Position numbers and translations under genes: made by a program
Part shown: in pieces, positions 38,801 through 55,364 of the stretch
Layout: each line of letters begins with the position of its first letter
Position numbering within the stretch: position 1 is the stretch's first letter
NCBI GenBank assembly: GCA_029262875.1
Contig: JAJCYO010000125.1
Location: 1-64,000, forward strand
Direction: 5' to 3'
Source: Flavobacteriales bacterium
Lineage (GTDB): Bacteria; Bacteroidota; Bacteroidia; Flavobacteriales_E; Vicingaceae
DNA: 64,000 nt
Notes under the pieces: model-generated
The model's input: the letters and a program-made list of their open reading frames with translations, nothing else
Database searches by the model: none
What the model was told of the DNA's origin: nothing

Positions 38801-38912
38801 GTTGAAAAATATGAAAGATCGAGTAGTAGAAATGAAAGGAAACTTAACCATTGGAAAGACAGAAGAGGGAATTGGGACTCGGATTTCAATTGAAGTACCT
38901 ATAGTAAGTTGA
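35895..38912 (+). CDS. Propeller-type sensor histidine kinase
   Basis: 1005 residues. A signal sequence leads into two seven-bladed beta-propellers built from Reg_prop repeats (GYLWFATQDGISQYDG, KIWVGTSGNGINVYNP, EIWLGSNKGVYKYNE). Then come a Y_Y_Y domain (about 690-760), one transmembrane helix (WWFISLSGLIVLVLVGLVI), a HisKA_3 dimerisation helix with the phosphate-accepting His in SRDLHDNIGAQ, and an HATPase domain (EAQNNIIKHAQ, EDNGIGMG, FGLKNMKDR). The response regulator follows 61 bases downstream. The ligand is not predictable; in other Bacteroidota such sensors bind oligosaccharides. Confidence 0.95.
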   Translation: MRVRLIILLLFIPLFNFGQHRFSYIDIEDDLTENSVTEIFQDSEGYLWFATQDGISQYDGYQFKNYNISNNDSLSLSDNYLWGFIEDSLGFLWVCSRNGLNRIDKKTGKTIQFFINSSGSNGENQVADIAIYQGDLFALISGKICKIYIKQDYVNRINYIVENDIIETGSDTIYAFYKDGENIFFLQSDGLFNFTTKELMPISEFQKGITHTFFKATRRKELLWFTNGKKLYAYNSKTQQINSFRYDFEGATMYDLLTVKNELWVATDNGIFIFDDNKLIHHITKNQSNESGISSNIVAALAQDKTGKIWVGTSGNGINVYNPNRDKFKYLSKETLGGDYIIRSIVQTKNNQLIVCTSNKVIVLELYDITSTQSKFASDNVKSIQELKVKGHQNIVPTKVFLGLNGDILLGTKGNDIIVLDKYFKFKKKVTLNIEQQPTNVVSDIILTQKDEFWVATYYGIYVLDKAYDLIQVFSPDEKGLTTNYFLSVFEDTENEIWLGSNKGVYKYNETTNKFINYSYQKNNLQESPGFNFVCGFTDFGDGNLWMATYGGGLSKMDKKKGTFRHFTTENGLANNVCNGLLSDQTKNIWLNTNKGISRFNSKTEKFINYTKSDGLDFNEFNLNSFYKNEEGEMFFGTPIGLVIFNPEDIKISNYQPPVIISRVDVNYKNESQRLQNNHIDIYSKDKVLTIHYVGLNFSNSPKIKYKYRLVGYDEVWVETNELKANYTSLPDGEFTFAINTTNADGIWNETPKEIVIVVHPPIYKTWWFISLSGLIVLVLVGLVIRYFAQRNIKKRLRELRVQQEIHHEKQRISRDLHDNIGAQITYLISSIDQEAYTSKQEDVVFDRLSDKARNVMSQLRQTIWVISKEAINLSDFAQKVRDYSTKMLSLAGINVFVQVNGNENSVLAPTIVSHLFRILQEAQNNIIKHAQASEVKIELSVQNNCIYLFIEDNGIGMGEIKTWDDHFGLKNMKDRVVEMKGNLTIGKTEEGIGTRISIEVPIVS

Positions 38913-38956
38913 GGCATATGGCCTATTGTAACATTTGATTTGGTTAAAGACCTTTG
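38911..38956 (+). promoter_or_regulatory. Dyad operator and promoter of the response regulator gene
   Basis: AGGCATATGGCCT-like dyad (38912-38924) followed by TTG (38926-38928), 20 bases and GACCTTTG (38949-38956), one mismatch from TAnnTTTG. 17 of 18 bases (GGCATATG to TATTGTA) match the copy before the SBBP cargo gene, in the same position relative to the promoter. Confidence 0.55.
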
Positions 38957-38973
38957 AATCATTATATTTAAGT

Positions 38974-39615
38974 ATGGATAAGATTAAAATAGGGGTAGCT
39001 GAGGACGTGCCAGAGTTGGCAAGAATCATTAAACAAAAGTTTATGGCTTTTGAAGGGGTAGATTTAATCTTTATCGCTTCTAATGGGATAGAGCTTCAGG
39101 AAAAGTTAAAAGAAAATAAAGTAGATGTTATACTGATGGATATCAATATGCCTATAATGAATGGGATTGACGCAACCAGAAAAGTGAAAGAAAAATATCC
39201 AGATATTAAAGTTATTATGCATACTGTTTTTGACGAGGAGGACAAAGTTTTTGAATCAATTTTAGCTGGAGCAACGGGCTATTTATTAAAAGATGATAAA
39301 CCTTCTAAGATTTTATTGTCGATAGAAGAAGCAATGGAAGGAGGAGCACCGATGAGTGTTTCTATAGCGTCTAAGGTTTTAACCTTTATAAAAACAGACA
39401 CCCAAAAAAGCATTGAAAAGTTTAATTTAACCCAACGTGAACTCCAAATTTTACAACGAATAGGGAAAGGAGAAAATTACCAGCAAATTGCCGATATTCT
39501 ATTTATAAGCCCGAAAACAGTTAGAAATCATATAGAAAAGATCTACAAAAAATTACATGTTCATAATAAAGTAGATGCTGTAACTGTGGCCATGAAAAAT
39601 AAATTGATTGTTTAA
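38974..39615 (+). CDS. LuxR/NarL-type response regulator
   Basis: 213 residues: a receiver domain (phosphoacceptor D56 in VILMDINMP, acidic pair E10/D11, conserved K in GYLLKDDKP) and a C-terminal LuxR-type helix-turn-helix (LTQRELQILQRIGKGENYQQ and SPKTVRNHIEKIYKKL). It pairs with the propeller kinase upstream. The longer frame starts with TTG at 38935; the ATG at 38974 gives the standard receiver start MDKIKIGV. The dyad upstream of its promoter and of a divergent cargo gene is its most likely binding site. Confidence 0.95.
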   Translation: MDKIKIGVAEDVPELARIIKQKFMAFEGVDLIFIASNGIELQEKLKENKVDVILMDINMPIMNGIDATRKVKEKYPDIKVIMHTVFDEEDKVFESILAGATGYLLKDDKPSKILLSIEEAMEGGAPMSVSIASKVLTFIKTDTQKSIEKFNLTQRELQILQRIGKGENYQQIADILFISPKTVRNHIEKIYKKLHVHNKVDAVTVAMKNKLIV

Positions 39616-39800: not shown

Positions 39801-42410
39801 ATGAGAATTAGTTTAGTCTTATTAATGTTGCTATGTAGTATACATGCTTATACTCAATCGCCTCTTCCTTCCTTTAAAAATTTTACTGTAGCTGATGGTT
39901 TACCTAGCTCTGAAGTATATGATGTTATTCAGGACAGAGTAGGGTACATGTGGTATGCTACGGATAGAGGAGTAGTAAAATACAATGGCTATGAGTTCGA
40001 AACATTTACCACTGAAGATGGCTTAATGGACAATGTTGTTTTTGAGCTTTATGAAGACCCAAAAGGCAGGATATGGATGATTCCCATGAATGGGAAACTG
40101 TGTTTTTTTGAAGGTAATAATATAAAAGAATATCAGTATAATAACGAATTAATTGAGCACCTTAAAGTTCGACACTATCAATCTTTCCAAGTAGATAAAA
40201 ACGATAATATTTATGTTGGAACAACTCTGAGTGGCTTATTGCAAATTTCAGATAAGGGTATAGTAACTAAGACAAAGAGAGGAATGCCATGCACTAATAT
40301 TTTTTTCGGAAAGAGAGACGGATTCGTTTATTCTTATCAAGAGTCAAACCCTGTTAAGTGTAAAAAAAAGATCTTTAATTATCATTATGATAATGTATTT
40401 GTGGGTAACTCTACTGTGAGCCCAATACGATCAAAAGGGGTTTTGATTAAAGAAAATTTATTGTGTTTTAATACTGCCGGCAAACTCATTCTTTATAATA
40501 TAGATAGTGCTAAAATTAGAAGTGAAGCAGTTTTTGGATCTCGTGTTACAAGTTTTGAAAAAATAGACGGTTTATTGTTTGTTGGTTTGGAATTGGGCGG
40601 ATTAAAAGTATTGGTTGAGCAAAATGGAGAATTAATAGAAAAACATCATTTTTTATCAAATTATACCTGTACATCTATAATGAAAGATAAAGAAGGAGGA
40701 TATTGGTTTCCAACAACACAACATGGAGTTTTTTATACGCCAAATTTAGATGTGTTGTCCTACTCTGTTAAAAATGGGTTATACGAAAATTATATAGATG
40801 AGTTAGGAGTAATGGGACAAAAATTGGCCATAAGTTACAGGGATGAATATCAAATTTATGCAGAGAACTCTTTTTCCAAACTCCACCTTATGAATAATAC
40901 GAGTATGCTAATTCAAACGGCATATGACTCGTTAAGGTTTTACAAAAAAGGATGTATTTTTTATTATAACGGAGAAAAGTTAATGAATACCTGTGAAAAC
41001 TTTGTTTATCCTAATTTAAAATCATCTTCGATTCCAGCAAGAAAAAGATTTAAAGGGGCCATTTATTTTTTTAATAAACGAGAAGGGTACAGGTATGATG
41101 AAGAGAAATTTACCAAGATAAGCTTGAGTAAAGAATTTTCAAGAATTGAGGATGTTGAAATAATTGATGAACATACTTTTTGGATAGGAGCGTTAACAGG
41201 TCTATATAAAAAAACAGCAAAAGGTATTAAGGCAATGTCAACTGTTGATTCCTTATTTTCTTATCGGGTGATTGGATTGGATCGAACAGAAAAATATGAG
41301 TTAATTGTGGGAACTAGAGGGGCAGGAATTATTCTAATACAAGGAGATGACATCATAAACATTAATACCAATAACGGGTTAATTGTGAATGATATAACCA
41401 GTTTATACGTTGATGAAGAAGAAAATATTTGGGTAGCTACCAATCGAGGATTGAATCGAATTGATGCCAATAACATAGCGAACATCGATTTTTATTCCAC
41501 CAACGATGGACTTATTTCTAATGAAATTACCAATGTTCGAAGAATCATGAACAAGGTATATGTTGCAACAAAAAGAGGATTGTCAATAATTGATTTGGAT
41601 GCACACAAAAAAACGAATATGGGTGTTAACACCCGTATTGTAAGTGTTAAATTAAATGATGAACTGATCTCACATCAATCTATAATAGATATTTCACCGA
41701 ATGACAAATACCTCGAAATAAACTATTTAGGAATTAATTATGCAGCTTTAGGGAACATACAATACCGATATAGAATCAAAGAAATATCGAATAAATGGCA
41801 GTATACGAAAAATAGAGTTTTAAAATTAGATATTTTCCCAGAACGTGGAACTTATGCCATAGAAATAATGGCCAGAAAACTACCAGATGGAGTTTGGAGT
41901 AAAAAAGCCAAAATGATTACCTTAAAATTTCACCCTCCTTTTTATAAGACAGGTTGGTTTTTAATAACTGCATTGTCTTTATTCTTTATATTAATATATA
42001 TAGGATTTAGAATCAAAGTGTTGGCATATAACCGACATATTCTTCAAGAAATAATGAGTAGGCTATTAAAGAAATTAGGCAAGCAGTCGTATTTGATTAT
42101 TGAGTTAGATAAAAAACAAATAAGAATCAATGAAGCTGATATTTTATTTATACAATCATTTAAAGATTATGTTGAAATAAAAACAGTATCAGACAAATAC
42201 CTGTACCGTTCTACGTTAAAAAATATGGAAGGTAAATTACCATCCATCAACTTTATCCGTGTACACCGTTCTTATTTGATCCAAAAAGATAAAGTTGATG
42301 GCATTTCAAAAGATGAACTAATCATTCAAAATCATCAAATTCCGATTGGTAAAACCTACCAATCTAAACTTTCAGGATTAAAAAATCAATTCTCTAGGTT
42401 AAATAACTAA
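39801..42410 (+). CDS. Membrane-anchored propeller/LytTR regulator
   Basis: 869 residues. Signal peptide (cut after HAYTQ), Reg_prop beta-propeller repeats (VGYMWYATDRGVVKYNGYEF, NIWVATNRGLNRID), a Y_Y_Y domain (about 620-695), one transmembrane helix (WFLITALSLFFILIYIGF) and a C-terminal LytTR DNA-binding domain (INEADILFIQSFKDYVEIKT and IRVHRSYLIQK). There is no kinase or receiver domain, so this is a one-component sensor that would have to bind DNA while in the membrane. It is the gene just upstream of two LytTR half-site repeats and the secreted-protein operon. Confidence 0.93.
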   Translation: MRISLVLLMLLCSIHAYTQSPLPSFKNFTVADGLPSSEVYDVIQDRVGYMWYATDRGVVKYNGYEFETFTTEDGLMDNVVFELYEDPKGRIWMIPMNGKLCFFEGNNIKEYQYNNELIEHLKVRHYQSFQVDKNDNIYVGTTLSGLLQISDKGIVTKTKRGMPCTNIFFGKRDGFVYSYQESNPVKCKKKIFNYHYDNVFVGNSTVSPIRSKGVLIKENLLCFNTAGKLILYNIDSAKIRSEAVFGSRVTSFEKIDGLLFVGLELGGLKVLVEQNGELIEKHHFLSNYTCTSIMKDKEGGYWFPTTQHGVFYTPNLDVLSYSVKNGLYENYIDELGVMGQKLAISYRDEYQIYAENSFSKLHLMNNTSMLIQTAYDSLRFYKKGCIFYYNGEKLMNTCENFVYPNLKSSSIPARKRFKGAIYFFNKREGYRYDEEKFTKISLSKEFSRIEDVEIIDEHTFWIGALTGLYKKTAKGIKAMSTVDSLFSYRVIGLDRTEKYELIVGTRGAGIILIQGDDIININTNNGLIVNDITSLYVDEEENIWVATNRGLNRIDANNIANIDFYSTNDGLISNEITNVRRIMNKVYVATKRGLSIIDLDAHKKTNMGVNTRIVSVKLNDELISHQSIIDISPNDKYLEINYLGINYAALGNIQYRYRIKEISNKWQYTKNRVLKLDIFPERGTYAIEIMARKLPDGVWSKKAKMITLKFHPPFYKTGWFLITALSLFFILIYIGFRIKVLAYNRHILQEIMSRLLKKLGKQSYLIIELDKKQIRINEADILFIQSFKDYVEIKTVSDKYLYRSTLKNMEGKLPSINFIRVHRSYLIQKDKVDGISKDELIIQNHQIPIGKTYQSKLSGLKNQFSRLNN

Positions 42411-42450
42411 TCCGTTCGTCTCAAAAACCCAGTCCGTTCGTCTCAAAAAC
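42411..42450 (+). promoter_or_regulatory. LytTR-type operator: two direct repeats
   Basis: TCCGTTCGTCTCAAAAAC occurs twice, at 42411-42428 and 42433-42450, identical, period 22. Its first nine bases TCCGTTCGT fit the published LytTR half-site pattern [TA][AC][CA]GTTN[AG][TG] at every position, with a 13-base gap between half-sites, as expected for that family. Confidence 0.75.
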
Positions 42451-42545
42451 ACTTTTTTAAAAGGGAATAGAAGCAACCCATGCTTTTTTTTGTGTTAAAT
42501 AAAAACAGAAGAATCAATTTATTAATAAATAAAAAACGAATACTT

Positions 42546-44483
42546 ATGAAGTATAAAATTTTAACTCTAATTGTACTATCAGTTGTAACTTTTACTACAT
42601 ATAGTCAAAATAACAATGGAAACGGCAATGGTAATCCTGGAGGTCTTACTAATGTATGGACACGTACAGGTAATACTGGCGTTTTATCTACGGAATTTTT
42701 AGGAACTAACGATAATACAGATTTAATTTTTAAAACCAATTTACTAGAAAGAATGAGAATTCTCGGTTCAGGAAATATTGGAATAGGAACGGCAACTCCG
42801 TTGAGCACACTTGATTTAACAGGAACCTTTCGTTTAAACGATGGAACACAACAGGCGGGTTATTTTTTAGGAACGGATGCTAATGGAAATGCTGCATGGG
42901 TTTCTTTACCGAACAACAACATCTGGAATTTAAATGGAAACGATGCTTATTATACTGCAGGAAGAGTTGGTATAGGCACAAGTACTCCTGGTGCAACCAA
43001 TCCAAATGCTGTGTTAGAAGTGAAAGGTAGAACCGTTATTGATGGAAATGATCATACCGAAACCCGTTTAACCTTTACGAATGCAGGGATTGGGGCAACG
43101 CAATTTTTTTGGGATGAGCCAACAGACCTTTTCAATATTCAAGCCTCAAGAGTGGGAGGAGCAGGGATCAACTTTATTGTTAGAGATATGCTGAATCAAT
43201 ACCATGATGTACTGAACCTAAATAAAAATACTAATGTTGGAATTAAAACCAACCAACCTAATTCTCCATTAACAGTTGCAGGGACTATAGAATCCACAAC
43301 TGGAGGAATTAAATTTCCTGATGGAACAGTGCAAACAACTGCAGCTACTGTGCTACAGGGATCTTCTGTCAATCCATATACTGATTTATTTGTTTCCGAT
43401 TATTTAAAAGTAGGAAACAACTCTATACATATGGGTTCTGCTAATGCTACAAGTACTGAAAATGAATTTTTTACTACAAATGGGCCATTAATTATTAATA
43501 GTAGTGGTGTTAATGTTAAAAGCGGGACATCCGAAGGACAAAATACCATAATAAATCCCAACGGAGGAAGAGTTGGGATTGGCCATGCTAATATTTCTAC
43601 AGGAGTGGATGTGCATGTTAAAGGGAAAATGTTATTGGACGGAATTAATTCGTCTATGTTTTTTGGTGATGATATTGTGCGTTCAAGAGGTCAGTATGGA
43701 ATTGAGTATGAAAAATGGTCTGGTGGTTTAAATTTTTGGAAACCTTTTGGGAGTACTAATTCTACAGGTGGCGGTGGATTTCAAAATTTCATTCTTTTCT
43801 TAAAAGATAATGGAAATGTTGGAGTAGGAACTTCTAATCCAAAGGATGCTTTTCAGCTGGGAGATAATGAACATAAAATTGTAATGGGTTCAGCAATTGG
43901 TGCTGATTTAGATTTTGGAACCATGTATTTAGGATTTAATGCTGCAAGAGAAGCAGGTGCTTGGTCGACCAATACTGATGGAGCTCATAATGGAGGTGCT
44001 GTTATTTTTTCAGACATAAGCGGAGGAATAAGCTTTGCTAATATAGAAACTGAAGCTGTTGGTAGTTCTAATCAAACAGGTATTACAGATTTAGAATTAC
44101 GAGACAAGACGAGTCTTTATATAAGTAAAAATGGCAATGTGAGTATTGGAACAAAAGATGGACAAGGTTATAAATTAGCGGTAAAAGGGCACATGATTGC
44201 AGAAGAAATAGTGGTTAAACTACATGCTAACTGGCCTGATTTTGTTTTCACAAAAGATTATGGGTTAATGAGTTTAGATGAAGTTGCTTCATTTATTGAA
44301 GAAAATAATCATTTACCAAATATTCCTTCAGCAAATAAAGTATCGGAAGAAGGAATAAATCTAGGTGAAATGGATGCCAAGCTGTTACAAAAAATAGAAG
44401 AATTAACCCTATATGTTATTCAATTGAAAAAAGAGAATGAACGTCAGCAAGAATTAATCAATGATATAATTAGTGGAAAATAA
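42546..44483 (+). CDS. Secreted tail-fibre-like protein, first gene of the cargo operon
   Basis: 645 residues from the ATG at 42546, where a signal peptide (cut after TTYSQ) begins; a longer frame from 42480 would bury the leader. The body has repeated beta-helix-like blocks of tail-fibre type (RVGIGTSTPGA, GNVGVGTSNPKD, NVSIGTKDGQG). The C-terminus (ANWPDFVFTKDYGLMSLDEV, then NLGEMDAKLLQKIEELTLYVI) is a domain common in Bacteroidota surface proteins and ends in a coiled coil. No SDxRxK autocleavage motif and no type A or B sorting domain is seen, so how it is anchored is unclear. Confidence 0.85.
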   Translation: MKYKILTLIVLSVVTFTTYSQNNNGNGNGNPGGLTNVWTRTGNTGVLSTEFLGTNDNTDLIFKTNLLERMRILGSGNIGIGTATPLSTLDLTGTFRLNDGTQQAGYFLGTDANGNAAWVSLPNNNIWNLNGNDAYYTAGRVGIGTSTPGATNPNAVLEVKGRTVIDGNDHTETRLTFTNAGIGATQFFWDEPTDLFNIQASRVGGAGINFIVRDMLNQYHDVLNLNKNTNVGIKTNQPNSPLTVAGTIESTTGGIKFPDGTVQTTAATVLQGSSVNPYTDLFVSDYLKVGNNSIHMGSANATSTENEFFTTNGPLIINSSGVNVKSGTSEGQNTIINPNGGRVGIGHANISTGVDVHVKGKMLLDGINSSMFFGDDIVRSRGQYGIEYEKWSGGLNFWKPFGSTNSTGGGGFQNFILFLKDNGNVGVGTSNPKDAFQLGDNEHKIVMGSAIGADLDFGTMYLGFNAAREAGAWSTNTDGAHNGGAVIFSDISGGISFANIETEAVGSSNQTGITDLELRDKTSLYISKNGNVSIGTKDGQGYKLAVKGHMIAEEIVVKLHANWPDFVFTKDYGLMSLDEVASFIEENNHLPNIPSANKVSEEGINLGEMDAKLLQKIEELTLYVIQLKKENERQQELINDIISGK

Positions 44484-44490
44484 GACCCTT

Positions 44491-46647
44491 ATGGAGAAGA
44501 AAAACATCCGTTTTATGAACGATAAAAAAGACTCTATAATCTACTTGTTATTTGTTTTAATCTTGTTATTTAATTCACAAGCTTCGGCACAAGGGTTAAC
44601 CCAAAAGTGGAATACATTTGAGAAAAAAGAACAAATAAAATTATCTGATGAATTATTTCTTAATTCTAAATATTTTCATTTAGAAAAGGATAATGAAATG
44701 ATTAAATACAAGGAATATGATGATAAACAAGGAAACACACATGCGAAATATTTTCAAACATACAAAGGAATTAAAATAGAGGGAGGGCATTATATTCTTC
44801 ATTATTTAAATGATGATTTGTATGCTATGAATGGAAATATTGTTTCTCAATTACAAATAGATGATACACAACAAATATCAGAAGAGCAGGCAGTTAATAT
44901 TGTTTTAAATAGATTAGTAAAAGAAAATAGTTTCAATTTAGAATATGAAATTAAAAAACCTGATGTTAGAAGCTTAACAGACAAAGATAAACAGCTAAGA
45001 GGAAGTCTAATAATTACGGAAAAGGGAGACGATAAGAAATGGAAACTTTGTTACAAGTTTAATATAGAACTAAATAAGGCACTGGAGTCTTATGATTGTT
45101 ATGTCGATGTTAAATCTGGAGAAATAATTAGCATTGAATCCTCCGCTCGCCATTGTACTGTTGGAACAGCAACAGGTACCACAAGGTATAACGGATCACA
45201 GTATTTTACGACAAAATGGGGAGGGTCATTGGCTCAATATGAGCTTATAGATGATTGTAGAAATATTCGAACAAAACATGCTTGGGGGTGGTTTGATTAT
45301 CATGATGGGACTGATAATTGGGTGTCCTCGAATGATATAGAAGGAGTTAGTGTACATTGGGCCTTACAAAGAGCTTTTGACTATTATGAATTTGCATTTA
45401 ATTTAGCAGGAGTTGATGGGTTTTATATGCCCATCGAAGGGAGAGCAGATGCGAATGGCACCTATTCAAATCAGGCAGCGTGGTCCAATGGTAGAATCTT
45501 TGTTGGGGGTGATAATGGTAGTGATATTAGTTTTGCTACACTTGATGTTATTGGTCATGAATGGACACATGGAGTTGACCAACATTCGGGGCCAAACCTT
45601 ACTGCTCAAGATGAATCCGGAGCACTGAAAGAATCGTTTGCTGATATTTTTGGGGCAATGGTAGAATATTATGTAGAAGGTATGCACAGTGGGATTTATG
45701 TTCATGGGGATGATCATGGTAAAACTTCTGCTCTTGAGAGTTTCCAAGACCCTGGAATTTATGATGCTCCTTCAATTTATGAAGGTCTGAATTGGCATGA
45801 CTATACTACCAATACAAATGATTTTGGAGGTATTCACACGAATAGAGGAGTTCAAAATCACTGGTTTTATTTGTTGGCAGAAGGAGGGAGTCAAACAGTA
45901 GACGGGGTCACCTATAATGTTACTGGTATAGGAATTGAAAACGCAGCCTATGTTACTTACAAAAACTTTAGGGATTATTTAAGTGAATCTTCTGAATACA
46001 ATGACTCAAAAAATGGTTCTATTCTGGCAGCGATAGATATATGGGGAGAATGTGATTGGAAAGTAGAACAGGTAATTAATGCTTGGAATGCAGTAGGTGT
46101 TTCTTCAGTAGGAGGAAAATATTTTAATCACTTTGTCGATTGTAATGAGGTTCAACTTTCATATTCTTTAGGGAATACTTATGGTGCTGATGCATTAAAT
46201 GATATTAACTCTGATTGTCTGTATTCGGCAGGAGAAATAAGTAGATTGGTCGCTGGAAATCAAATCCGGTTTCTTGCTGGAAGTATTTTATCTGGCGATT
46301 TAAGAGCTAGTATAAACTCATGTCTCACAAACAATATGAGGGTTAGCTCAAATCTTTCAAGCTATGCTGGATTAGGAAATATAGAAGTTGATTTTCAAAA
46401 TGAACTTTCTGTACCAAATGTGACTATTAATCCAAACCCTTCAAGTGGTATTTTTAGTATAAAGGTAGGAGAAAATTTCATTACAGGCTCTATGAAAGTG
46501 TACAATAGTATGGGGGTGAAAGTTTATGAAAAAAATGACTTAGATGAGTTTAGTGAGCTTAATCTGGATCAATATTCGAGTGGAATTTATATTCTTAGCT
46601 TAAGAAACGGAGAACGGATTTTTACAAAAAAACTTATAAAGGATTAA
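44491..46647 (+). CDS. M4-family metallopeptidase with T9SS type A sorting domain
   Basis: Thermolysin-like zinc peptidase of 718 residues: leader (FVLILLFNSQASAQ), FTP/PepSY propeptide (about 40-230), catalytic domain with zinc motif HEWTH (about residue 356) and Glu ligand in ALKESFADIFG, catalytic His in GGIHTNRGVQ (about 449), and a C-terminal sorting domain (INPNPSSGIFSI, KVYNSMGVKVYE, SSGIYILSL). All catalytic parts are present, so it should be active after export. The frame could also start at GTG 44473, inside the previous gene; the ATG at 44491 is chosen. It overlaps the next gene by one base. Confidence 0.93.
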   Translation: MEKKNIRFMNDKKDSIIYLLFVLILLFNSQASAQGLTQKWNTFEKKEQIKLSDELFLNSKYFHLEKDNEMIKYKEYDDKQGNTHAKYFQTYKGIKIEGGHYILHYLNDDLYAMNGNIVSQLQIDDTQQISEEQAVNIVLNRLVKENSFNLEYEIKKPDVRSLTDKDKQLRGSLIITEKGDDKKWKLCYKFNIELNKALESYDCYVDVKSGEIISIESSARHCTVGTATGTTRYNGSQYFTTKWGGSLAQYELIDDCRNIRTKHAWGWFDYHDGTDNWVSSNDIEGVSVHWALQRAFDYYEFAFNLAGVDGFYMPIEGRADANGTYSNQAAWSNGRIFVGGDNGSDISFATLDVIGHEWTHGVDQHSGPNLTAQDESGALKESFADIFGAMVEYYVEGMHSGIYVHGDDHGKTSALESFQDPGIYDAPSIYEGLNWHDYTTNTNDFGGIHTNRGVQNHWFYLLAEGGSQTVDGVTYNVTGIGIENAAYVTYKNFRDYLSESSEYNDSKNGSILAAIDIWGECDWKVEQVINAWNAVGVSSVGGKYFNHFVDCNEVQLSYSLGNTYGADALNDINSDCLYSAGEISRLVAGNQIRFLAGSILSGDLRASINSCLTNNMRVSSNLSSYAGLGNIEVDFQNELSVPNVTINPNPSSGIFSIKVGENFITGSMKVYNSMGVKVYEKNDLDEFSELNLDQYSSGIYILSLRNGERIFTKKLIKD

Positions 46648-48797
46648 TGAAGTGGTTTTTTAAAATATTAGGTGTCCTGGCGCTGTTTTTTATAGGGTTG
46701 CAGCTACGTGCTCAGCCCACAGCTTTAAATGATAGCAACCATGATTACCAAGAGTTAGCCAAACAGTTTTTTAATTCAAACTATATTGATCTTGATGAAG
46801 GAATGAAAATGGTATTAAAATCACAACATAAAGATGAATTTGGAAAAATGCATATGAGGTTCATTCAAACCTATAATAACATTAAAGTCGAATTGGGTTA
46901 TTACAACCTTCATTTTAATGGAAAAACACTTTATGCTCACAATGGTGAGATTGTTTCAAATGTAAGCTTCATAGAAGAAATTATTTTAAGTGAAGCTGAA
47001 GCTATTGATATAGCTAAGCAAGAACTTAAGTTAGAAAATACTGATGAATCAATAACTGTTCGTCAACCCTTAGGATTTTTAGCATTAGATGGAATAACAA
47101 ACATGAGAGGAACATTTTCTCACATAAAGAATAAGGAGACCGGAACCTATGAGTTGTGTTATAATTTCACCTTAGTGAATGATAATGCTTTAAAAGTTTA
47201 CGATTGCTGGATAAATGCAACTACTGGGCAAGCTAAGCTATTACGAGATGCGGCTCAATATTGTTCTATAGGGACAGGTAGTGGTAATACGGGTTATTAT
47301 GGTAATCAAACATTAACAACACAATGGACGGGTTCAATTACAAAGCATAGGTTAATCGACTATTGTCGGAATATTATAACCAAAAAGTGCAACAGTACTA
47401 ATGGTTCTGGACAATGCACAGGAGGTCATTACAGTGATGATGATAATAACTGGACTGATGGAGATGACTTGCAAGGAGTTAGTGTTCATTGGGCTACTCA
47501 GAGATCCTATGACTATTTTGACTTTGCTTTTAATTTTCAGGGTGTTGATGGAGATGCAGTTGTGACTGTTGATGCTAGAGCTGGGTGGACTGGAGGAAAT
47601 AGTGCCGCTTGGCAATCTACGAATCAGTTGGTTATTGCGGGACCAAGTAATGGTATAGGGGGGTTTACTGCTTTAGATGTAATTGCCCATGAATGGACTC
47701 ATGGAATCATCCAACACTCTTCTGGATTGTACGGGAATCTGGAGTCAGATGCTTTAAACGAATCATTTGCCGATATTTTTGGTGTTATGACAGAGTATTT
47801 CGTTGAGGGAATTACTCCGGGAATATATCAAATAGGTGAACGGATAACAAATATAGAATTAATACCAGAACTTGGTACAACGGCAATTAGTAATCTTCAA
47901 GATCCTTCTTTGACCAATCAAGCTTCAATTTATGAAGGAGTAGATTGGTATTCTGGGCCATCAGATAATACTTTTGAGTATGTGAATCGAGGAGTACAAA
48001 ATCATTGGTTTTATTTATTGGCAGAAGGAGGTTCACAGACAATTGATGGAGTTACCTATAACGTAACGGGAATAGGAAAGGAATCTGCTGCGCAAGTTGC
48101 ATTTAAGAATTTAAGAGATTATTTAAGTGAGTACTCCGAGTATAACGATAGTAAGAATGGTTCTATTCTGGCAGCAATAGATTTATGGGGAGAATGTGAT
48201 TGGAGAGTTGAGCAAGTAATAAATGCCTGGAATGCAGTCGGGGTATCCTCTGTAGGTGGTAAATACTATGAAACTTATATGGATTGCTTTCGATCTAACG
48301 TTTTTACAGCGTTAGGATGGTCCTATAATGAGAATGCGCTTCATACGTTACATGCTGAATGTGATTTTATTGGAGGAGGTCCAGTAGAACTTAGTGCTGG
48401 AACAAAGATTCGCTTTGCAGCAGGGGCTGTTTTAAGAGATGGTATTCACGCTCGTATAAACCCTTGTTTAACCAGCAATATGAGATATTCTTTTCCTTCT
48501 AATTATGCTGGAATTGGAAATACAAGTATTGAAACCAATGAATTTCCCGGTGAAAAAGAATTTCAAGAACTTAACATATTTCCTAACCCGACTAATGGAA
48601 AATTCACGATAAGTATAAAAGATTATAATGGAATAGGGACAATTGAGGTTCATAATGTAATGGGGCAACAAGTCTATTACTTTAAAGGAAATTTTTCCCA
48701 ACATGAAATAGATTTAAGCCATGAGAAAAATGGGCTTTATATAGTTAAATACACGAATGAACAAGAACAGCTTACACAACGAATTATAAAACAGTAA
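46647..48797 (+). CDS. M4-family metallopeptidase paralogue with His-to-Tyr change
   Basis: 716 residues, same layout as its neighbour: leader (LRAQ), propeptide, zinc motif HEWTH (about residue 348), Glu ligand in ALNESFADIFG, type A sorting domain (IFPNPTNGKFTI, VHNVMGQQVYYF, NGLYIVKY). At the position of the thermolysin catalytic His (GGIHTNRGV in the neighbour) it has TFEYVNRGV, so the His is replaced by Tyr445. Zinc binding should remain but peptidase activity may be low or altered. The first base of its ATG is the last of the upstream TAA. Confidence 0.92.
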   Translation: MKWFFKILGVLALFFIGLQLRAQPTALNDSNHDYQELAKQFFNSNYIDLDEGMKMVLKSQHKDEFGKMHMRFIQTYNNIKVELGYYNLHFNGKTLYAHNGEIVSNVSFIEEIILSEAEAIDIAKQELKLENTDESITVRQPLGFLALDGITNMRGTFSHIKNKETGTYELCYNFTLVNDNALKVYDCWINATTGQAKLLRDAAQYCSIGTGSGNTGYYGNQTLTTQWTGSITKHRLIDYCRNIITKKCNSTNGSGQCTGGHYSDDDNNWTDGDDLQGVSVHWATQRSYDYFDFAFNFQGVDGDAVVTVDARAGWTGGNSAAWQSTNQLVIAGPSNGIGGFTALDVIAHEWTHGIIQHSSGLYGNLESDALNESFADIFGVMTEYFVEGITPGIYQIGERITNIELIPELGTTAISNLQDPSLTNQASIYEGVDWYSGPSDNTFEYVNRGVQNHWFYLLAEGGSQTIDGVTYNVTGIGKESAAQVAFKNLRDYLSEYSEYNDSKNGSILAAIDLWGECDWRVEQVINAWNAVGVSSVGGKYYETYMDCFRSNVFTALGWSYNENALHTLHAECDFIGGGPVELSAGTKIRFAAGAVLRDGIHARINPCLTSNMRYSFPSNYAGIGNTSIETNEFPGEKEFQELNIFPNPTNGKFTISIKDYNGIGTIEVHNVMGQQVYYFKGNFSQHEIDLSHEKNGLYIVKYTNEQEQLTQRIIKQ

Positions 48798-48819
48798 ATC
48801 AAAATTAAAAAAAAGGAAA

Positions 48820-51800
48820 ATGAAGAAAAAGAGTTTAATAGTATTGGCAATGTTTATTTCTTATTTGGGTTTTGGACAAGATTTAATAGTTAATGGGGAT
48901 TTTGAAGATGGAAACCCGGCTTGTGCAACTGAACTTCCCCCCCAATGGCAAAAAGGGTGTTCTTTACCGTCTGGTGGATTTTTTCCAGGGAGTCCAGATC
49001 ATGTTGATTTTAATGTATGTTCTTCAGGTCTTGTTTGTCCTGACCCAGTTGAGGATTTATGCAATAGACAACCGCAATGGGGAGTTTTACCAGATGAAAT
49101 AGGTCACTCAAAATATGCACATTTTGTTAAACACCATATTGTAAATGAGGCAAGCATTCATAATTTCGATGAACGGATAGGGCAATGGTTAAACCCCCCA
49201 TCATTTTCAGAAGGTTGTTATAATTTGTCTTTTAATGTTGCTAAATCGATTCTTCCAATACAGGTAAATCAATATACTCCTTATCATGTTATCGAGGTTA
49301 CTTTAGTAAATACTGCTAATTGCCTAACTGTGCCTGCTCTAGTGCTATTTGAAACACCTGTAATAACGAATACTACCTCATGGATAAATTATTCTACATC
49401 TGTACAAGTAGATGCAGTTCAGGCCGCGACCTATAATAGAATAGAATTTCGCATTAAGGATTTTCCAGCGAGTACCCCTACTTATGAGACGGGAGTATTT
49501 ATTGATGACGTAAAATTTGTAAAAACAAATGTGCCACAAGCCGATTTTGATCTTTCATATATAGCACCTTGTGCTGGAAATGCAATAATCGCGGATGGTT
49601 CACCAAGTACGAATAGTGATGAATACCATTGGGAAATAGTAGAAGTTAATGAGTTTAACAATCCAATAGGAATAACTTACACACAACCCAATCAAACAGG
49701 AGCGCCAGGAGCAACTGTGATGCAATCTGTTTTTGGTCCCATGGGCTTTACTTTTGAATCAGGAGGGTGTTATAAAATAAGTTTATCGATAAATAACAGT
49801 TGCGGTCCCGCAGATACATGGACAGAAACAATTTGTTTAGATAGTACAGATATTGACTTGATAGTAAGTCCTAACCCAGCTTGTGTTGATGAACCAGTAT
49901 TTATGGAAATAGAAGGCCCATTTGGGGTACTTGTTTCTCCATATGAGTGGTATGAATCAGGAAATTTAGTAAACTCAGGACCAACATGGAATGTTTCTAG
50001 CGGGTTCTCTTCCAGTACAACAATTCAAATTTTAGGGACTACAACACACGGGTGTCCTATTAGTGAGCAGTTTACTATAAACATTGAGCCCGATCCCGAT
50101 CCTACATTTACATTTAACGATCCTGACGGAAACTATTGTTTCGGAGAACCAGTAATACTAACTGTAAATTCTATAGTAGGATCTGTAAGTAACGAATGGT
50201 GGATAGAAGAAGATACTGGCGTATTGCCAGCATTTGACCCTTTAGCAGGGGCCGTTCTTTTGGGTTCAGGCTCAAGTTTGGATATTATTAATGCAGGATT
50301 CTCTTTACAAGGAGATAAATGCTATTGGGTAAAACATGTTGTTAATTCTGCTAATTGTGGATTGCAAGAAGAAATCAAGCGGTTTTGTTATCATAATAAC
50401 CCTGTTTTAAATTTGCAAGCGACTTATGTGTTGTGTGAAGGAGAGGATTTCCAACTTAGTTTAGGGTTTGTTAAAGGGCATACATTTTCTTGGACTATTG
50501 TAGAAAACATAACAGGATCGTCTGTTACTCAAAGTACGCCATTTGTAAATTATACCCCTGAAACAGGTAGTAATGGTTTCTCATTTACAGTAACGGTTAC
50601 TAATTCATTAACTGGATGTAGCACAACCAAATTTTCTCAAATTGAGATTATTTTACCTCCTTCTCCACCGGTAGCTTCAGGACCGTTATGTGGACCAGGA
50701 AGTACTGCAACTTTTACTACTAATGGACATTCTGGTTTCACATATACTTGGTTCGATCAAACTTTAAAACCCCCATTGGGCACAGGAACGAGTATTACCT
50801 TAGGAGCAGGCAGTTATGAATTGGTGGCTGTTTACGATGATGGAAATACCAAATGTACCTACAGTTTTTTATTTACTGCTGTAGAGCATTCTTTACCCGT
50901 ATTAACAGCTCAAAATTTACTTATAGGAACTTGTGATCCATTGCATATAGCTGCAACAGCAACAGGGAATGGACCATTTTTATTTGACTTAAGTGGAGAT
51001 CATACAGTGGGACAGCAATCGAGCGGAGATTTTACTTTCTTCCCTCCTGTAGTATCTAACGACCCTAATTTAATATTTAATTTCTTGGTTACAGTTACTG
51101 ATATTAATGGCTGTATTGATACTGAGCCTGTAGGGGCATTTAACCCTCCTTATTGGGGAGCGCCAAGAATTCAAGGGACGAATTCAAACCTTATTAGCTC
51201 TGGGACACCAGGCCCAGGAGCTGTAATATGGAAAGTAACAGATCAATTATATACGGTTGCTGGAGCCCCTTCGTTTCAACCATATTATAATAATATTTTA
51301 TCCTATGAGTTAACCATTACTGAGCAAGAAGTTTATGCTCTCAACGGGCACTCAATACCATTTTACGAATATAGTGATGTTGTAGCCCCGGGAGATCCTG
51401 ATGGTTTTGTTGGATTAGAAATAACATGGGATGAGACTTCAAATACTGGAATTACACCTATTCCGTCAAATTTATTTTCAGGAGTTTACCAGTATCAATT
51501 AAATTTAAAAAATTGTTCAGTAGATTATACTTCTTGTGAATTAGGAGAGTTGTGTAATTTTATAAATACAGAATTTAAAAGTGCTACCTGTGAATTATTA
51601 CAAACACAAGCTGAAGTAGATGCATTTGGGGCGATAAGTTTTGGTGTAGTTGATTGTATCTTCATTTTAGATAACGGGAATGACCCTATTTTAGATTTAT
51701 CTTCATTAAATAATATTACCTCAGTTACTGGAGGACTATCTGTTTATGGATGCGGTTCATTAAGTTCATTAAGTGGCTTAGATGGTATAACTTCTGTAGG

Positions 51801-52602
51801 AGGATTATCAATAATAAATAATTCTGGATTGGTAAGTTTAAATGGTTTAGAGAACTTAGCACAAGTAGGGGGAGATTTTACCATGCAATTTAATAATGTG
51901 TTAACAGAACCTTGTGCCATTTCAAATTTATTAAACACCAACGGAGCAATTGGTGGAGCTGTAACAATCTCAAACAATGTTCCAGGGAAAAGCAATAACA
52001 AGAATGTTATTATTCATAGATGTTCTAAGAAGAAAAAATCAAGATTGATTCCACCACAATGCGGGGGGAGTATTCCTATTCCTCAGGAAAAAGTGTATGC
52101 AGAAGTTATTCAAGGAGCAAATAAATATAAGTTTCTTGTAACCGATCCTGTTACATCATTGAGTGCTGAAAAAGAAAAAACAGCGAACAGTTTTCAACCA
52201 TCATCTGATTTTTCAGGGATGATTACTGGAAAAACTTATGATGTTGAAGTTGCTGTTAAGAAAGGAAACAGTTGGGGAACCTATGGTCCAAAATGTCAGT
52301 TATCAATTCAGAGTGTTGGAAGTGGAAATAGAATTGTGGTTGTAGGTGATAGCCAATGGAATTTTATAAATGAGATTTCTATTTCCCCCAACCCCAATAA
52401 CGGTCAATTTACAATTAATGTAAAAGGCTTTGATGGAGAAGGAGAAATTAAAGTGTTTAATATGGTAGGGCAACAAGTTTATTACTATAGTGGCACTTTT
52501 ACACAACATGAAATTGATTTAACCCAAGAAAAGAATGGTTTATACATTGTGAAATATAGTAACAGCAATAGTCAATTTGTAGAACGGATTGTGAAACAAT
52601 AA
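48820..52602 (+). CDS. Large secreted multidomain protein, T9SS type A
   Basis: 1260 residues. Signal peptide (cut after YLGFGQ) and an N-terminal galactose-binding-like domain (LIVNGDFEDGNP, then VFIDDVKFVK at about 225-235). Several Ig/PKD-like beta domains follow. A leucine-rich stretch at about 950-1045 (LSSLNNITSVTGGLSVYGCG, LSSLSGLDGITSVGGLSI) recalls receptor-L repeats, and then a fibronectin-like domain. The type A sorting domain (SPNPNNGQFTINVKGFDGEG) is almost identical to those of the next two genes. Probable surface adhesin or binding protein; ligand unknown. Fourth gene of the operon, 22 bases after the previous stop. Confidence 0.88.
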   Translation: MKKKSLIVLAMFISYLGFGQDLIVNGDFEDGNPACATELPPQWQKGCSLPSGGFFPGSPDHVDFNVCSSGLVCPDPVEDLCNRQPQWGVLPDEIGHSKYAHFVKHHIVNEASIHNFDERIGQWLNPPSFSEGCYNLSFNVAKSILPIQVNQYTPYHVIEVTLVNTANCLTVPALVLFETPVITNTTSWINYSTSVQVDAVQAATYNRIEFRIKDFPASTPTYETGVFIDDVKFVKTNVPQADFDLSYIAPCAGNAIIADGSPSTNSDEYHWEIVEVNEFNNPIGITYTQPNQTGAPGATVMQSVFGPMGFTFESGGCYKISLSINNSCGPADTWTETICLDSTDIDLIVSPNPACVDEPVFMEIEGPFGVLVSPYEWYESGNLVNSGPTWNVSSGFSSSTTIQILGTTTHGCPISEQFTINIEPDPDPTFTFNDPDGNYCFGEPVILTVNSIVGSVSNEWWIEEDTGVLPAFDPLAGAVLLGSGSSLDIINAGFSLQGDKCYWVKHVVNSANCGLQEEIKRFCYHNNPVLNLQATYVLCEGEDFQLSLGFVKGHTFSWTIVENITGSSVTQSTPFVNYTPETGSNGFSFTVTVTNSLTGCSTTKFSQIEIILPPSPPVASGPLCGPGSTATFTTNGHSGFTYTWFDQTLKPPLGTGTSITLGAGSYELVAVYDDGNTKCTYSFLFTAVEHSLPVLTAQNLLIGTCDPLHIAATATGNGPFLFDLSGDHTVGQQSSGDFTFFPPVVSNDPNLIFNFLVTVTDINGCIDTEPVGAFNPPYWGAPRIQGTNSNLISSGTPGPGAVIWKVTDQLYTVAGAPSFQPYYNNILSYELTITEQEVYALNGHSIPFYEYSDVVAPGDPDGFVGLEITWDETSNTGITPIPSNLFSGVYQYQLNLKNCSVDYTSCELGELCNFINTEFKSATCELLQTQAEVDAFGAISFGVVDCIFILDNGNDPILDLSSLNNITSVTGGLSVYGCGSLSSLSGLDGITSVGGLSIINNSGLVSLNGLENLAQVGGDFTMQFNNVLTEPCAISNLLNTNGAIGGAVTISNNVPGKSNNKNVIIHRCSKKKKSRLIPPQCGGSIPIPQEKVYAEVIQGANKYKFLVTDPVTSLSAEKEKTANSFQPSSDFSGMITGKTYDVEVAVKKGNSWGTYGPKCQLSIQSVGSGNRIVVVGDSQWNFINEISISPNPNNGQFTINVKGFDGEGEIKVFNMVGQQVYYYSGTFTQHEIDLTQEKNGLYIVKYSNSNSQFVERIVKQ
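52386..52602 (+). repeat. Sorting-domain repeat, copy A
   Basis: About 215 bases coding the type A sorting domain, up to the stop codon. By eye about 90% identical to copies B (53363-53578) and C (54382-54597); a more diverged relative ends the gene at 48797. Confidence 0.85.
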
Positions 52603-52621
52603 TTAAAAATTAACAGGAAAA

Positions 52622-53578
52622 ATGATGAAAACGAAATTTTTAATGCTAATAATGATGTCCTATTCCTTTTTTGGATTTGCTCAGAATTTAGTTCCAAACT
52701 CAAGCTTTGAATCGTACTTTCCTTGCCCAAGTACAGTTAGCCAGTTTAATGTACTTAGTGATTGGACTATTCCGAATATAGGCTCAAGTGATTATTTTAA
52801 TGCTTGCGCACCAATTGGTAGTTGGTCGGTTAATGTCCCCAATAATTTGAAGGGTGTTCAGTCTGCCAATACGGGTACAGGTTATGCAGGTATTTACCTA
52901 ACATCGCTCGATCCATTTTCACCAATTGCTTATAGAGAATACTTACAGGTACAATTAACCAGCACCTTAACTGCTGGTCAACAGTACCTTGTTCAGTTCT
53001 ATTGGAGTTTAGCTGATTCGTCTTCTCATTCAGTTCAAGAAATAGGAGTCTATTTTTCTGCTTTTCAAATCAACTATAGCCAGCCTACTAATTTACTTTA
53101 CACCCCTCAGGTTGAACAAGTTGGAACCCCGTTAAACAACTCATCAGGATGGTCCGTGTTTCAGCAAATATATACCGCTACAGGTAACGAAAATTATTTG
53201 ATTATTGGAAATTTTAGAGACATTGCAAATACGACACTCGACTCTACTGGCGTTCCTTGTTCTTTGATAGAATGTTTTGCCTATTATTATATTGATGATG
53301 TAAGCGTGAGTATTTCCACGAATGTAACTGAATTGAGTAATTTCACTGGAGTAACCCTTTTTCCCAACCCCAATAACGGTCAATTTACTTTAAATGTAAA
53401 AGGCTTTGATGGAGAAGGAGAAATTAAAGTGTTTAACATGGTAGGCCAACAAGTTTATCACTATAGTGGCACTTTTACGGAACATGACATTGATTTGACT
53501 CAAGAAAAGAATAGCTTATACATTGTTAAGTATAGCAATGATAATGGTCAATTTGTAAAACGAATTGTGAAACAATAA
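52622..53578 (+). CDS. Secreted protein with galactose-binding-like domain, T9SS type A
   Basis: 318 residues; signal peptide (cut after FFGFAQ). The mature start NLVPNSSFESYFPCPSTVSQ, together with GYAGIYLTS and REYLQVQLTSTLTAGQQYLV, is typical of a Bacteroidota carbohydrate-binding-like beta-sandwich often found with OmpA-type proteins. The C-terminal sorting domain is repeat copy B. Two start codons are adjacent (52622, 52625). 19 bases after the previous gene. Confidence 0.87.
   Translation: MMKTKFLMLIMMSYSFFGFAQNLVPNSSFESYFPCPSTVSQFNVLSDWTIPNIGSSDYFNACAPIGSWSVNVPNNLKGVQSANTGTGYAGIYLTSLDPFSPIAYREYLQVQLTSTLTAGQQYLVQFYWSLADSSSHSVQEIGVYFSAFQINYSQPTNLLYTPQVEQVGTPLNNSSGWSVFQQIYTATGNENYLIIGNFRDIANTTLDSTGVPCSLIECFAYYYIDDVSVSISTNVTELSNFTGVTLFPNPNNGQFTLNVKGFDGEGEIKVFNMVGQQVYHYSGTFTEHDIDLTQEKNSLYIVKYSNDNGQFVKRIVKQ
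53363..53578 (+). repeat. Sorting-domain repeat, copy B
   Basis: Second copy of the sorting-domain DNA block; shares with A and C the run GTAAAAGGCTTTGATGGAGA without change. Confidence 0.85.
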
Positions 53579-53652
53579 ATAATAATATATTAGGGATGAA
53601 AGTCATAGTTGTATTATTAATCGTGATTATAAGTAGCAATTTTTATGCTCAA
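53579..53652 (+). repeat. Upstream-plus-leader repeat, copy 1
   Basis: The segment after the previous stop through the signal peptide (AATATATTAGGGATGA ... TTTTTATGCTCAAA) resembles 54598-54671, which has AATATATAAGGGATGA ... TTTTTATGCTCAAA, with the same spacing to the ATG. Confidence 0.6.
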
Positions 53653-54597
53653 ACAACCACTATTCCTGATGTGAATTTTGAGCAAGCTTTGATTGCAAGA
53701 GGATATGATTCTGGAGTGCCCGATGGAATGGTTCTTACAGTTAATATTGATACAGTAACGGTTCTGTCGGTTGATTTTAGTTTTATCAATGATTTAACAG
53801 GGATTGAAGATTTTACAGCTTTGACATCATTAGATTGTTATAATAATCAATTGACCAATTTAAATGTTACCCAAAATACTGCTTTAACTCACTTAGGGTG
53901 TTATTTTAACCAGTTAACAAGTTTGGATGTTACACAAAACACATTACTTTCATCTCTCTTTTGTGAAAATAATCAGTTGAGTAATCTTGATGTAACTCAA
54001 AATACTGCATTACAATATTTTTATTGTGAAAATAATCTATTAGCCAACCTTAATGTTACTCAGAATAGTGCATTAATCCAATTGCAATGTTTTAATAATC
54101 AAATGAGCAGTTTAAATTTGACTCAAAATGCACTATTGACAGATTTAGTCTGCCATAATAATTTACTAAGTTGCTTAAATGTTAAAAATGGAAATAATAC
54201 CATTTTAACTACCTTTTTTGCGTCACTCAACCCAAGCTTAACCTGTATAGAAGTGGATAATGTTATCTATTCAACTACCAATTGGACAAACATTGACGCA
54301 AGCGCTTCTTTTAGTACCAATTGCTCAAATCCTTGTGCTGTCGGTATAGAGGAATATAATTTTTCAAAAGTATCACTTCACCCTAACCCCAACAACGGTC
54401 AATTTACTGTAAATGTAAAAGGCTTTGATGGAGAAGGGGAAATTAAAGTGTTAAACATGATGGGTCAACAAGTATATCACTATAGTGGAGCTTTTACGCA
54501 ACATGAAATTGATTTGACTCAAGAAAAAAATGGTCTGTACATTGTGAAGTATAGTAATGATAAAGGTCAATTTGTAGAACGGATTGTCAAACAATAA
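53596..54597 (+). CDS. Secreted leucine-rich-repeat protein, T9SS type A
   Basis: 333 residues; signal peptide (cut after SNFYAQ), then the motif TTIPDVNFEQALIARGYDSG common before such repeats. About six LRR units of 21 residues follow (pattern CxxNQLTxLDVTQNTxLxxL), then a Cys-containing cap (LTCIEVDN), then sorting-domain copy C. LRR proteins of this kind mostly bind other proteins. Fifth cargo-type protein of the operon, 17 bases after the previous gene. Confidence 0.9.
   Translation: MKVIVVLLIVIISSNFYAQTTTIPDVNFEQALIARGYDSGVPDGMVLTVNIDTVTVLSVDFSFINDLTGIEDFTALTSLDCYNNQLTNLNVTQNTALTHLGCYFNQLTSLDVTQNTLLSSLFCENNQLSNLDVTQNTALQYFYCENNLLANLNVTQNSALIQLQCFNNQMSSLNLTQNALLTDLVCHNNLLSCLNVKNGNNTILTTFFASLNPSLTCIEVDNVIYSTTNWTNIDASASFSTNCSNPCAVGIEEYNFSKVSLHPNPNNGQFTVNVKGFDGEGEIKVLNMMGQQVYHYSGAFTQHEIDLTQEKNGLYIVKYSNDKGQFVERIVKQ
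54382..54597 (+). repeat. Sorting-domain repeat, copy C
   Basis: Third copy of the sorting-domain DNA block, ending at the LRR gene stop; with silent and a few coding differences from A and B. Confidence 0.85.
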
Positions 54598-54671
54598 ATG
54601 GTAATATATAAGGGATGAGATTTTTGATTGTATTAATAACGTTGATTATAAGCAATAGTTTTTATGCTCAA
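54598..54671 (+). repeat. Upstream-plus-leader repeat, copy 2
   Basis: Copy of 53579-53652 in front of the beta-barrel gene. Together with the sorting-domain repeat on its left side it suggests that a block (sorting domain, gap, leader) was duplicated. Confidence 0.6.
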
Positions 54672-55364
54672 ATTTCTGACGAAGAACCTGATAGGTATTC
54701 AGCTATGCCAGGTTCAAATCGGCCAGAACATTCTTTTGAGAAAGGAAAATTCTATTTTGATCTTCAAATGGCCTTTGGTGGATTTTATGGTCAAGAGCTT
54801 TCTGCAACAACTAACAATTGTAATTTTAATACCTTAACGATTAATAACATTGAGAATAAGAAAAAGGAGCTTACAGAAGGGATGCTAATCATCCCTCTTT
54901 TGGTAGAATACTCCTTAAGCTCTAAAATGGGAGTAGGAGTGGAATACAAACATTTTGGTTTCCTTAACAGTTCTACCACTCACGGATCTGGACAAGATTT
55001 TGGAGGTCGTTTCAGTTATCATTTTATCAATTATGACTATCAAGATTTGTATGTTGCCCTTGGAGTTGGGGTTTCGAATCTCAAATCTATACCAGCAAGT
55101 GAACTTCGGGCACCGGTGTATACTAACCTAAGTGGAACTGGATATTATTTGAAAGTCAATTTTGGATATCGAGTATTCATACTTAAAGATGTAGCCATTA
55201 GCACTAGTATTAACTACGCTTATTCAAGTTACTCTAATATGAAAGGCACCTATACTCAATTTGGTAGGGATGCTGAGACAAATGCTTTTGAGTTTGATAA
55301 AAGTGCTTCAATACAGGCTCAGAGCTTCTATATTGCTTTTGTAGGATTATCTTTTAAACTCTGA
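54615..55364 (+). CDS. Outer-membrane beta-barrel protein
   Basis: 249 residues; signal peptide (cut after NSFYAQ) and alternating hydrophobic strands (KFYFDLQMAFGGFYG, MGVGVEYKHFGF, GRFSYHFINYDY, FYIAFVGLSFKL) ending with a C-terminal aromatic/aliphatic strand, typical for a small barrel. Last gene of the operon. Its upstream sequence and leader resemble those of the LRR gene. It ends 2 bases from the convergent glyS stop; no terminator is visible between them. Confidence 0.82.
   Translation: MRFLIVLITLIISNSFYAQISDEEPDRYSAMPGSNRPEHSFEKGKFYFDLQMAFGGFYGQELSATTNNCNFNTLTINNIENKKKELTEGMLIIPLLVEYSLSSKMGVGVEYKHFGFLNSSTTHGSGQDFGGRFSYHFINYDYQDLYVALGVGVSNLKSIPASELRAPVYTNLSGTGYYLKVNFGYRVFILKDVAISTSINYAYSSYSNMKGTYTQFGRDAETNAFEFDKSASIQAQSFYIAFVGLSFKL

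Follow-up and report, generated by a model that had tools for sequence, protein, structure and literature searches.

A putative LytTR operator between a membrane-anchored propeller regulator and a secreted-protease operon in a Flavobacteriales bacterium

Introduction

In a member of the Flavobacteriales (family Vicingaceae; assembly GCA_029262875.1) two identical repeats lie between the gene of a LytTR regulator and a series of genes for secreted proteins, which raises the question of what the repeats are for and which protein reads them. A first-pass annotation, made from the letters of the DNA, proposed that they form an operator through which the regulator activates the genes that follow. 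The window analysed here is the whole stretch of 64,000 nucleotides (contig JAJCYO010000125.1, positions 1 to 64,000, forward strand).

LytTR operators are defined as pairs of ~9-bp direct repeats, 10-13 bp apart (PMC11347149). The prototype of the membrane-fused LytTR subfamily is CoxC of Afipia carboxidovorans, an MHYT-LytTR membrane regulator that acts as a repressor (PMC11347149) and is the sole characterised membrane-fused LytTR protein that was found.

Results

The regulator and the downstream operon

The gene upstream of the repeats (39801..42410, + strand) encodes a protein of 869 aa with a signal peptide, a double beta-propeller (Reg_prop), a Y_Y_Y-like domain, one transmembrane helix and a C-terminal LytTR DNA-binding domain (42114..42374, + strand; 71.9 bits). 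The LytTR match (E 3.5e-18; 66.1 bits with a curated cut-off of 22.6) assigns the domain to PF04397, and Reg_prop and LytTR were the sole Pfam families in the protein. The single transmembrane helix was located at aa ~718-743 by hydropathy and in the AlphaFold model (mean pLDDT 70, pTM 0.55), in which the domain order was as in the sequence. The description of the protein as membrane-anchored with a C-terminal LytTR domain was thereby confirmed. In Foldseek searches, the outside part of the regulator matched the periplasmic sensors of BT4663 (E 1e-33), BT3049 and BT4673 and, more distantly, PorZ of the type IX system; phmmer searches with the regulator resulted in matches to 3v9f (E 1e-25) and 4a2l (E 3e-22). 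There were 15 LytTR matches elsewhere in the genome, one of them a fragment. Directly upstream of the regulator, positions 35895-39615 encode a propeller histidine kinase of the HisKA_3 type and a LuxR-type response regulator (38935-39615).

The seven co-directional genes downstream (42546-55364) overlap or are separated by at most 22 nt, and all of them encode exported proteins; the earlier description of a tightly packed group with two M4-type enzymes held in full. Gene 1 (42546..44483, + strand) encodes an exported protein of 645 aa with a signal peptide and no Pfam match. Genes 2 (44473..46647) and 3 (46647..48797), both on the + strand, encode M4 (thermolysin-type) metallopeptidases that were recognised by Pfam, carry the HEWTH motif and end in a type IX sorting domain. 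The same type of sorting domain was detected by Pfam in the products of gene 4 (48820..52602, + strand; secreted, 1260 aa), gene 5 (52622..53578, + strand; secreted, 318 aa) and gene 6 (53596..54597, + strand; leucine-rich-repeat protein, 333 aa). Gene 7 (54615..55364, + strand) encodes an exported protein of 249 aa, also with a signal peptide and no Pfam match, which is probably an outer-membrane barrel. The C-terminal Por_Secre_tail domain of type IX cargo is thus present in five of the seven proteins, the exceptions being the products of genes 1 and 7.

The repeats in the window

The 18-mer TCCGTTCGTCTCAAAAAC was found in two exact copies on the + strand, at 42411-42428 and 42433-42450, with a start-to-start distance of 22 bp. 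The first base of half-site 1 is the base that follows the stop codon of the regulator. No further TCCGTTCGTCTCAAAAAC site was detected in the window when up to 3 mismatches were allowed, and none of 100 shuffles contained the 18-mer twice. In both copies, TCCGTTCGT matches the LytTR half-site pattern [TA][AC][CA]GTTN[AG][TG], with a gap of 13 bp, so the identity of the copies and the fit to the pattern, both reported earlier, were reproduced. The strict pattern pair with a gap of 12-13 bp occurs once in the window compared with 0.15 expected from base composition; because 0.15 such pairs are expected per window, the match to the consensus is unremarkable and, taken alone, weak evidence for an operator. 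The remarkable points are that the copies are identical and conserved, and it is the comparison with relatives that carries the operator case. The gap, 13 bp here and 12 or 13 bp in relatives, lies within the range that defines LytTR operators. Bases 2-10 of each repeat form the core CCGTTCGTC, which is a published site of the LytTR protein AlgR (PMC4064291).

Conservation in relatives

Relatives of the regulator were gathered within the family, in a set of 395 genomes of the class and in named contigs, resulting in 24 non-redundant single-chain regulators. A TTC[AG][TC]C.CA pair with a spacing of 21 or 22 bp was found within ~110 nt past the stop codon in 20 of the 24. The same pair score was reached in 0.4% of dinucleotide-shuffled regions and in one of 21 regions upstream of the same regulator genes; propeller proteins without LytTR gave scores of 12 or lower, none of them at the pair score. 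In a held-out test, the matrix was built from six genus members only, the spacing was left free between 18 and 25, and the other 18 regulators were scored. Thirteen of these 18 exceeded the 1% null threshold, and all the matches were at 21 or 22 bp. No downstream pair was found for four of the 24 regulators (L059, L093, L094 and L102); L059 has a transposase-like gene downstream, and L093 and L094 belong to genome G030.

The orthologue in MAG NORP85 (G001), 50% identical to the regulator, is followed two bases past its stop codon by ATTCGTCTCAAAAAC in two copies 21 bp apart, and this pair precedes a different exported gene than the pair in the window. The site of the orthologue reads GGTATTCGT, which departs from the 5' half of the published LytTR consensus. 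Further regulators, those of G002 and G004, are followed at the same location by GTTCATCAC/GTTCRTCAC-like pairs. The family-wide conserved core is TTC[AG][TC]C.CA rather than the full 9-mer. An exact-sequence search in the genus resulted in no match outside the genome itself because the flanks of the core diverge; the protein-led search recovered the sites. Looking for paired sites in the genome and its relatives had been put forward as a check by the first-pass annotation, and such pairs were found after the 20 regulators and twice in the genome itself. In G178 (C95, L191), two paralogous propeller-LytTR regulators at a single locus are each followed by their own operator pair and their own type IX cargo gene.

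A scan of the 395 class genomes with the operator pattern only gave matches in 8 genomes, the reversed control pattern in none. A propeller-LytTR gene or a remnant of one precedes the two sites of the genome studied here and those of G069 and G262, the G180 site lies behind the gene of a soluble LytTR regulator, the G308 site has a LytTR gene ~300 nt upstream, the sites in G046 and G160 were without a nearby LytTR gene, and the G419 match is a tandem array. The G180 site (C12; L197:1500-1535) is a TTCATCAC/TTCATCCC pair with a spacing of 21 bp, 3 nt past the gene of a soluble LytTR response regulator of 239 aa; this type of operator is therefore not confined to membrane regulators. By these distributions, the operator seems to belong to LytTR proteins more widely and most consistently to the propeller-TM-LytTR architecture. 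When operator and promoter were searched together across the phylum, the two sites of the genome were recovered together with one match without a nearby LytTR gene, which is likely due to chance. Two further arrangements were observed. G046 carries three near-identical TTCRYCGCAAGCTCAGGTCACTTCGTCGCAAAGTTCTG pairs (L232, L238, L241) before paralogous exported genes, and no LytTR gene lies closer than 1.5 kb. In G419 (C39:25855-25970, L203), the unit TTCATCCCAAACAAACCCTGA, whose 21 bp correspond to roughly one operator period, is present six times in tandem upstream of an aspartate-semialdehyde-dehydrogenase-like gene.

Promoter position

A -7 box, TTTTTTTG, was identified at 42485..42492 (+ strand); it differs from TAnnTTTG at one position and lies 48 nt past the TTC of half-site 2. 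TAnnTTTG-like boxes occupy the same position in relatives: with at most one mismatch allowed, 15 of the 20 pairs are followed by such a box, its first base being 47-48 nt past the second TTC, compared with ~0.5 expected (P ~6e-21, binomial). In the window, the 30 nt that precede the box contain no TTG of a -33 element. The view that the promoter has neither a good -33 nor a good -7 box was thus correct for the -33 element, as the TTG is absent, and did not stand for the -7 box, which is present at a conserved distance. In F. psychrophilum, the -7 box covers -12 to -5 (PMC9723704), and half-site 2 is therefore placed at about -60 and half-site 1 at about -82 to -85. Transcription is predicted to start near 42497. 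The alternative ATG of gene 1 at 42480 lies upstream of this predicted start, so that 42546 is likely the start codon of the gene. At two operators away from intact regulators (L210 in contig C121 of the same genome and L244 in contig C135 of G001), TAnnTTGT stands at the box position instead of TAnnTTTG and resembles SM5, an alternative promoter motif in F. psychrophilum (PMC9723704).

Agreement between half-sites

At core position +4 (T or C), both half-sites have the same base in all the 20 pairs (100%) compared with 56% between pairs. The corresponding values for position +6 were 17 of 20 (85%) and 32%. After relatives with more than 45% identity were removed, position +4 agreed in 9 of 9 pairs (P 0.03) and position +6 in 7 of 9 (P 0.05). 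Such agreement is as would be expected if one protein reads both half-sites. A correlation between LytTR residues and site bases was also sought, with K788 and D789 of the window protein as candidates; it was set aside due to the lack of a clean separation and strong confounding by descent.

The anatomy of the locus, the conservation, the spacing, the distance to the promoter and the half-site agreement come directly from the analysis. The earlier reading of the repeats as a LytTR operator gains support from their position behind regulators of one kind, the spacing of 21-22 bp, the distance to the -7 box, the AlgR core and the half-site agreement, and it extends beyond this genome.

Copies of the operator at other loci

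The genome has exactly two operator pairs, both of them behind the tail of this regulator and before exported genes. The second one is part of a block in contig C121 (24298-24526; L024:7293-7530), where a remnant of the regulator 3'-end of 50 codons, 67% identical to the regulator over aa 822-869, is followed by the pair and a gene for type IX cargo of 490 aa. The two copies, in the window and in C121, share 107 of 150 positions (71%) in the coding remnant and are ~49% identical past the repeats. In the 36-nt operator, 34 positions match between them, for which P is ~6e-4 if the operator were evolving like the coding remnant. The other LytTR loci of the genome had no such pair within ~1.5 kb.

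Three identical operator pairs were found in G001, one of them behind the intact regulator. The pair at C90:22359 (reverse strand) stands after the decayed last 40-odd regulator codons and before a gene of 1315 aa with SprB repeats. That at C135:9645 (reverse strand) retains the last few bases of the tail together with the whole promoter and leader and precedes the gene of a type IX protein of 905 aa with SprB repeats. These two loci, L243 and L244, are the analogues of the C121 block.

A tail with an operator before a new exported gene was thus observed in three cases, the C121 block and the two in G001, and the repeats and those tails that could be compared are nearest to the regulator of their own genome. 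Duplication of the locus with loss of its 5' part would be the plain explanation of these copies. Operators on 3'-end remnants of the regulator before other exported genes, in this genome and in G001 as its closest relative, suggest that the regulon grew by copying of tail plus operator. In G069 and G262, the further pairs lack a regulator remnant and are followed, at a distance of exactly 48 nt, by a -7-like box. Evenly balanced is the broader proposal that Bacteroidota membrane one-component switches built of a propeller and LytTR enlarge their regulon by placing a cassette of their own 3'-end and operator before genes of exported proteins, after which the coding remnant decays and the operator stays.

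Discussion

We consider it highly likely that the upstream regulator uses the two repeats as its operator and through them turns on the seven-gene operon in response to an outside signal. The membrane protein, with its sensor outside and its DNA-binding domain inside, very probably switches on the neighbouring operon of secreted proteases. The regulator would be a single-chain LytTR protein of the inner membrane, its propeller and Y_Y_Y-like sensor being periplasmic, followed by one transmembrane helix and a cytoplasmic LytTR domain. Each protomer would bind one half-site through LytTR, with the two half-sites on the same face of the DNA at a distance of two helical turns. From its sites at about -85 and -60, the regulator would contact RNA polymerase at a promoter with a -7 box and no -33 box, and the contact would turn on the operon, whose products are for the most part type IX cargo and include two thermolysin-type proteases. 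The extracytoplasmic signal may be a polymer or a peptide, as sensed by related propellers. We infer the binding to the operator, activation rather than repression, and the outside origin of the signal.

The same operator and regulator could also work in the opposite direction, the bound regulator repressing the operon until relieved by a signal, in the manner of CoxC at PcoxB. CoxC is itself a membrane-fused LytTR protein and a repressor, and a membrane-bound protein could bind constitutively. However, the CoxC operator overlaps the -35 element, whereas the half-sites here keep to positions of about -60 and -85 and lie ahead of the polymerase boxes, as in AgrA; the window also lacks a visible -33 TTG. 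Repression is accordingly rather unlikely. Less probable still is that the repeats are bound by a different protein, whether another of the LytTR proteins encoded in the genome or the response regulator of the LuxR type (38935-39615). There are many other LytTR proteins in the genome, a kinase adjoins the regulator, and a similar pair lies behind the gene of a soluble LytTR regulator elsewhere (L197); as the motif was found near that regulator and before G046 exported genes that lack a LytTR gene within 1.5 kb, another LytTR protein could in principle bind. On the other hand, the genome's other LytTR genes have no pair within ~1.5 kb, and the repeats have an AlgR-type core. The kinase/LuxR pair is not beside the related regulators in G001, G002 and G004, whereas the repeats are, and this pair was set aside as controller since it does not travel with the module. 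It is hardly credible that the repeats are not regulatory DNA at all and instead act as an RNA element, terminate transcription of the regulator gene or belong to a mobile repeat. The block of tail plus repeats does occur in more than one copy per genome, but the repeats are direct and not inverted, the RNA fold z-score was -0.2 with no Rfam match, no transposase was recognised next to the copies in either genome (G000, the one studied here, and G001), and the spacing and promoter distance are exact across many families.

The preferred reading, activation by the upstream regulator, resembles several known systems in part. The core is shared with AlgR of Pseudomonas aeruginosa (PMC4064291). AlgR, however, is a soluble protein that contains a receiver domain, and it has single sites that are scattered and in some cases distant from the promoter, whereas the regulator here is membrane-anchored and the sites form a fixed pair. 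Direct repeats in pairs, separated by ~12 bp and located upstream of the -35 region, are also known from AgrA of Staphylococcus and from HdrRM and BrsRM of Streptococcus mutans, and the promoter-proximal repeat of AgrA is centred at about -60 (PMC4227749), as is the operator here. Those regulators are soluble and controlled by a kinase or a separate membrane inhibitor, whereas here the sensor and the DNA-binding domain form one chain with no kinase or receiver. LytTR regulatory systems of the HdrRM type (LRS) combine a soluble regulator with a separate adjacent membrane inhibitor (PMC6193735), and the present regulator is a single chain with its own transmembrane helix. With CoxC it shares the fusion of LytTR to a membrane sensor. 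The MHYT sensor of CoxC lies within the membrane, and CoxC represses CO oxidation genes from an operator over the -35; the regulator here had no MHYT match, its sensor is a periplasmic propeller, the repeat pair is placed at about -60 and the genes downstream encode secreted cargo.

The sensor fold itself is that of the periplasmic double propellers in Bacteroides hybrid two-component systems (BT4663, BT3049; Foldseek E to 1e-33). The output of those systems is of the AraC type. They carry a histidine kinase, a receiver and AraC in one chain, whereas the present regulator has only Reg_prop and LytTR, with the LytTR output directly after the transmembrane helix. No description of propeller-LytTR regulators or of a TTCGTC-type LytTR site in Bacteroidota was found in the open-access literature searched. 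What appears to be new, within the open literature searched, is an operator like those of LytTR activators that is tied to a membrane one-component propeller regulator, and the layout of sensor, tag pair and promoter recurs in many distant relatives.

Propeller-sensor regulators are abundant in Bacteroidota, and for the type with LytTR output no described target or site was found. The rule that emerges, TTC[AG][TC]C.CA at 0-110 nt past the stop codon, then at 21-22 bp TTC[AG][TC]C.CAAA, and a -7 box 47-48 nt further on, would allow targets to be predicted from sequence and would connect an outside sensor with exported proteases, adhesins and binding proteins. The agreement of the half-sites at +4 and +6 may serve as a starting point for a LytTR recognition code, and the copies of tail plus operator would provide a concrete route for the growth of a regulon.
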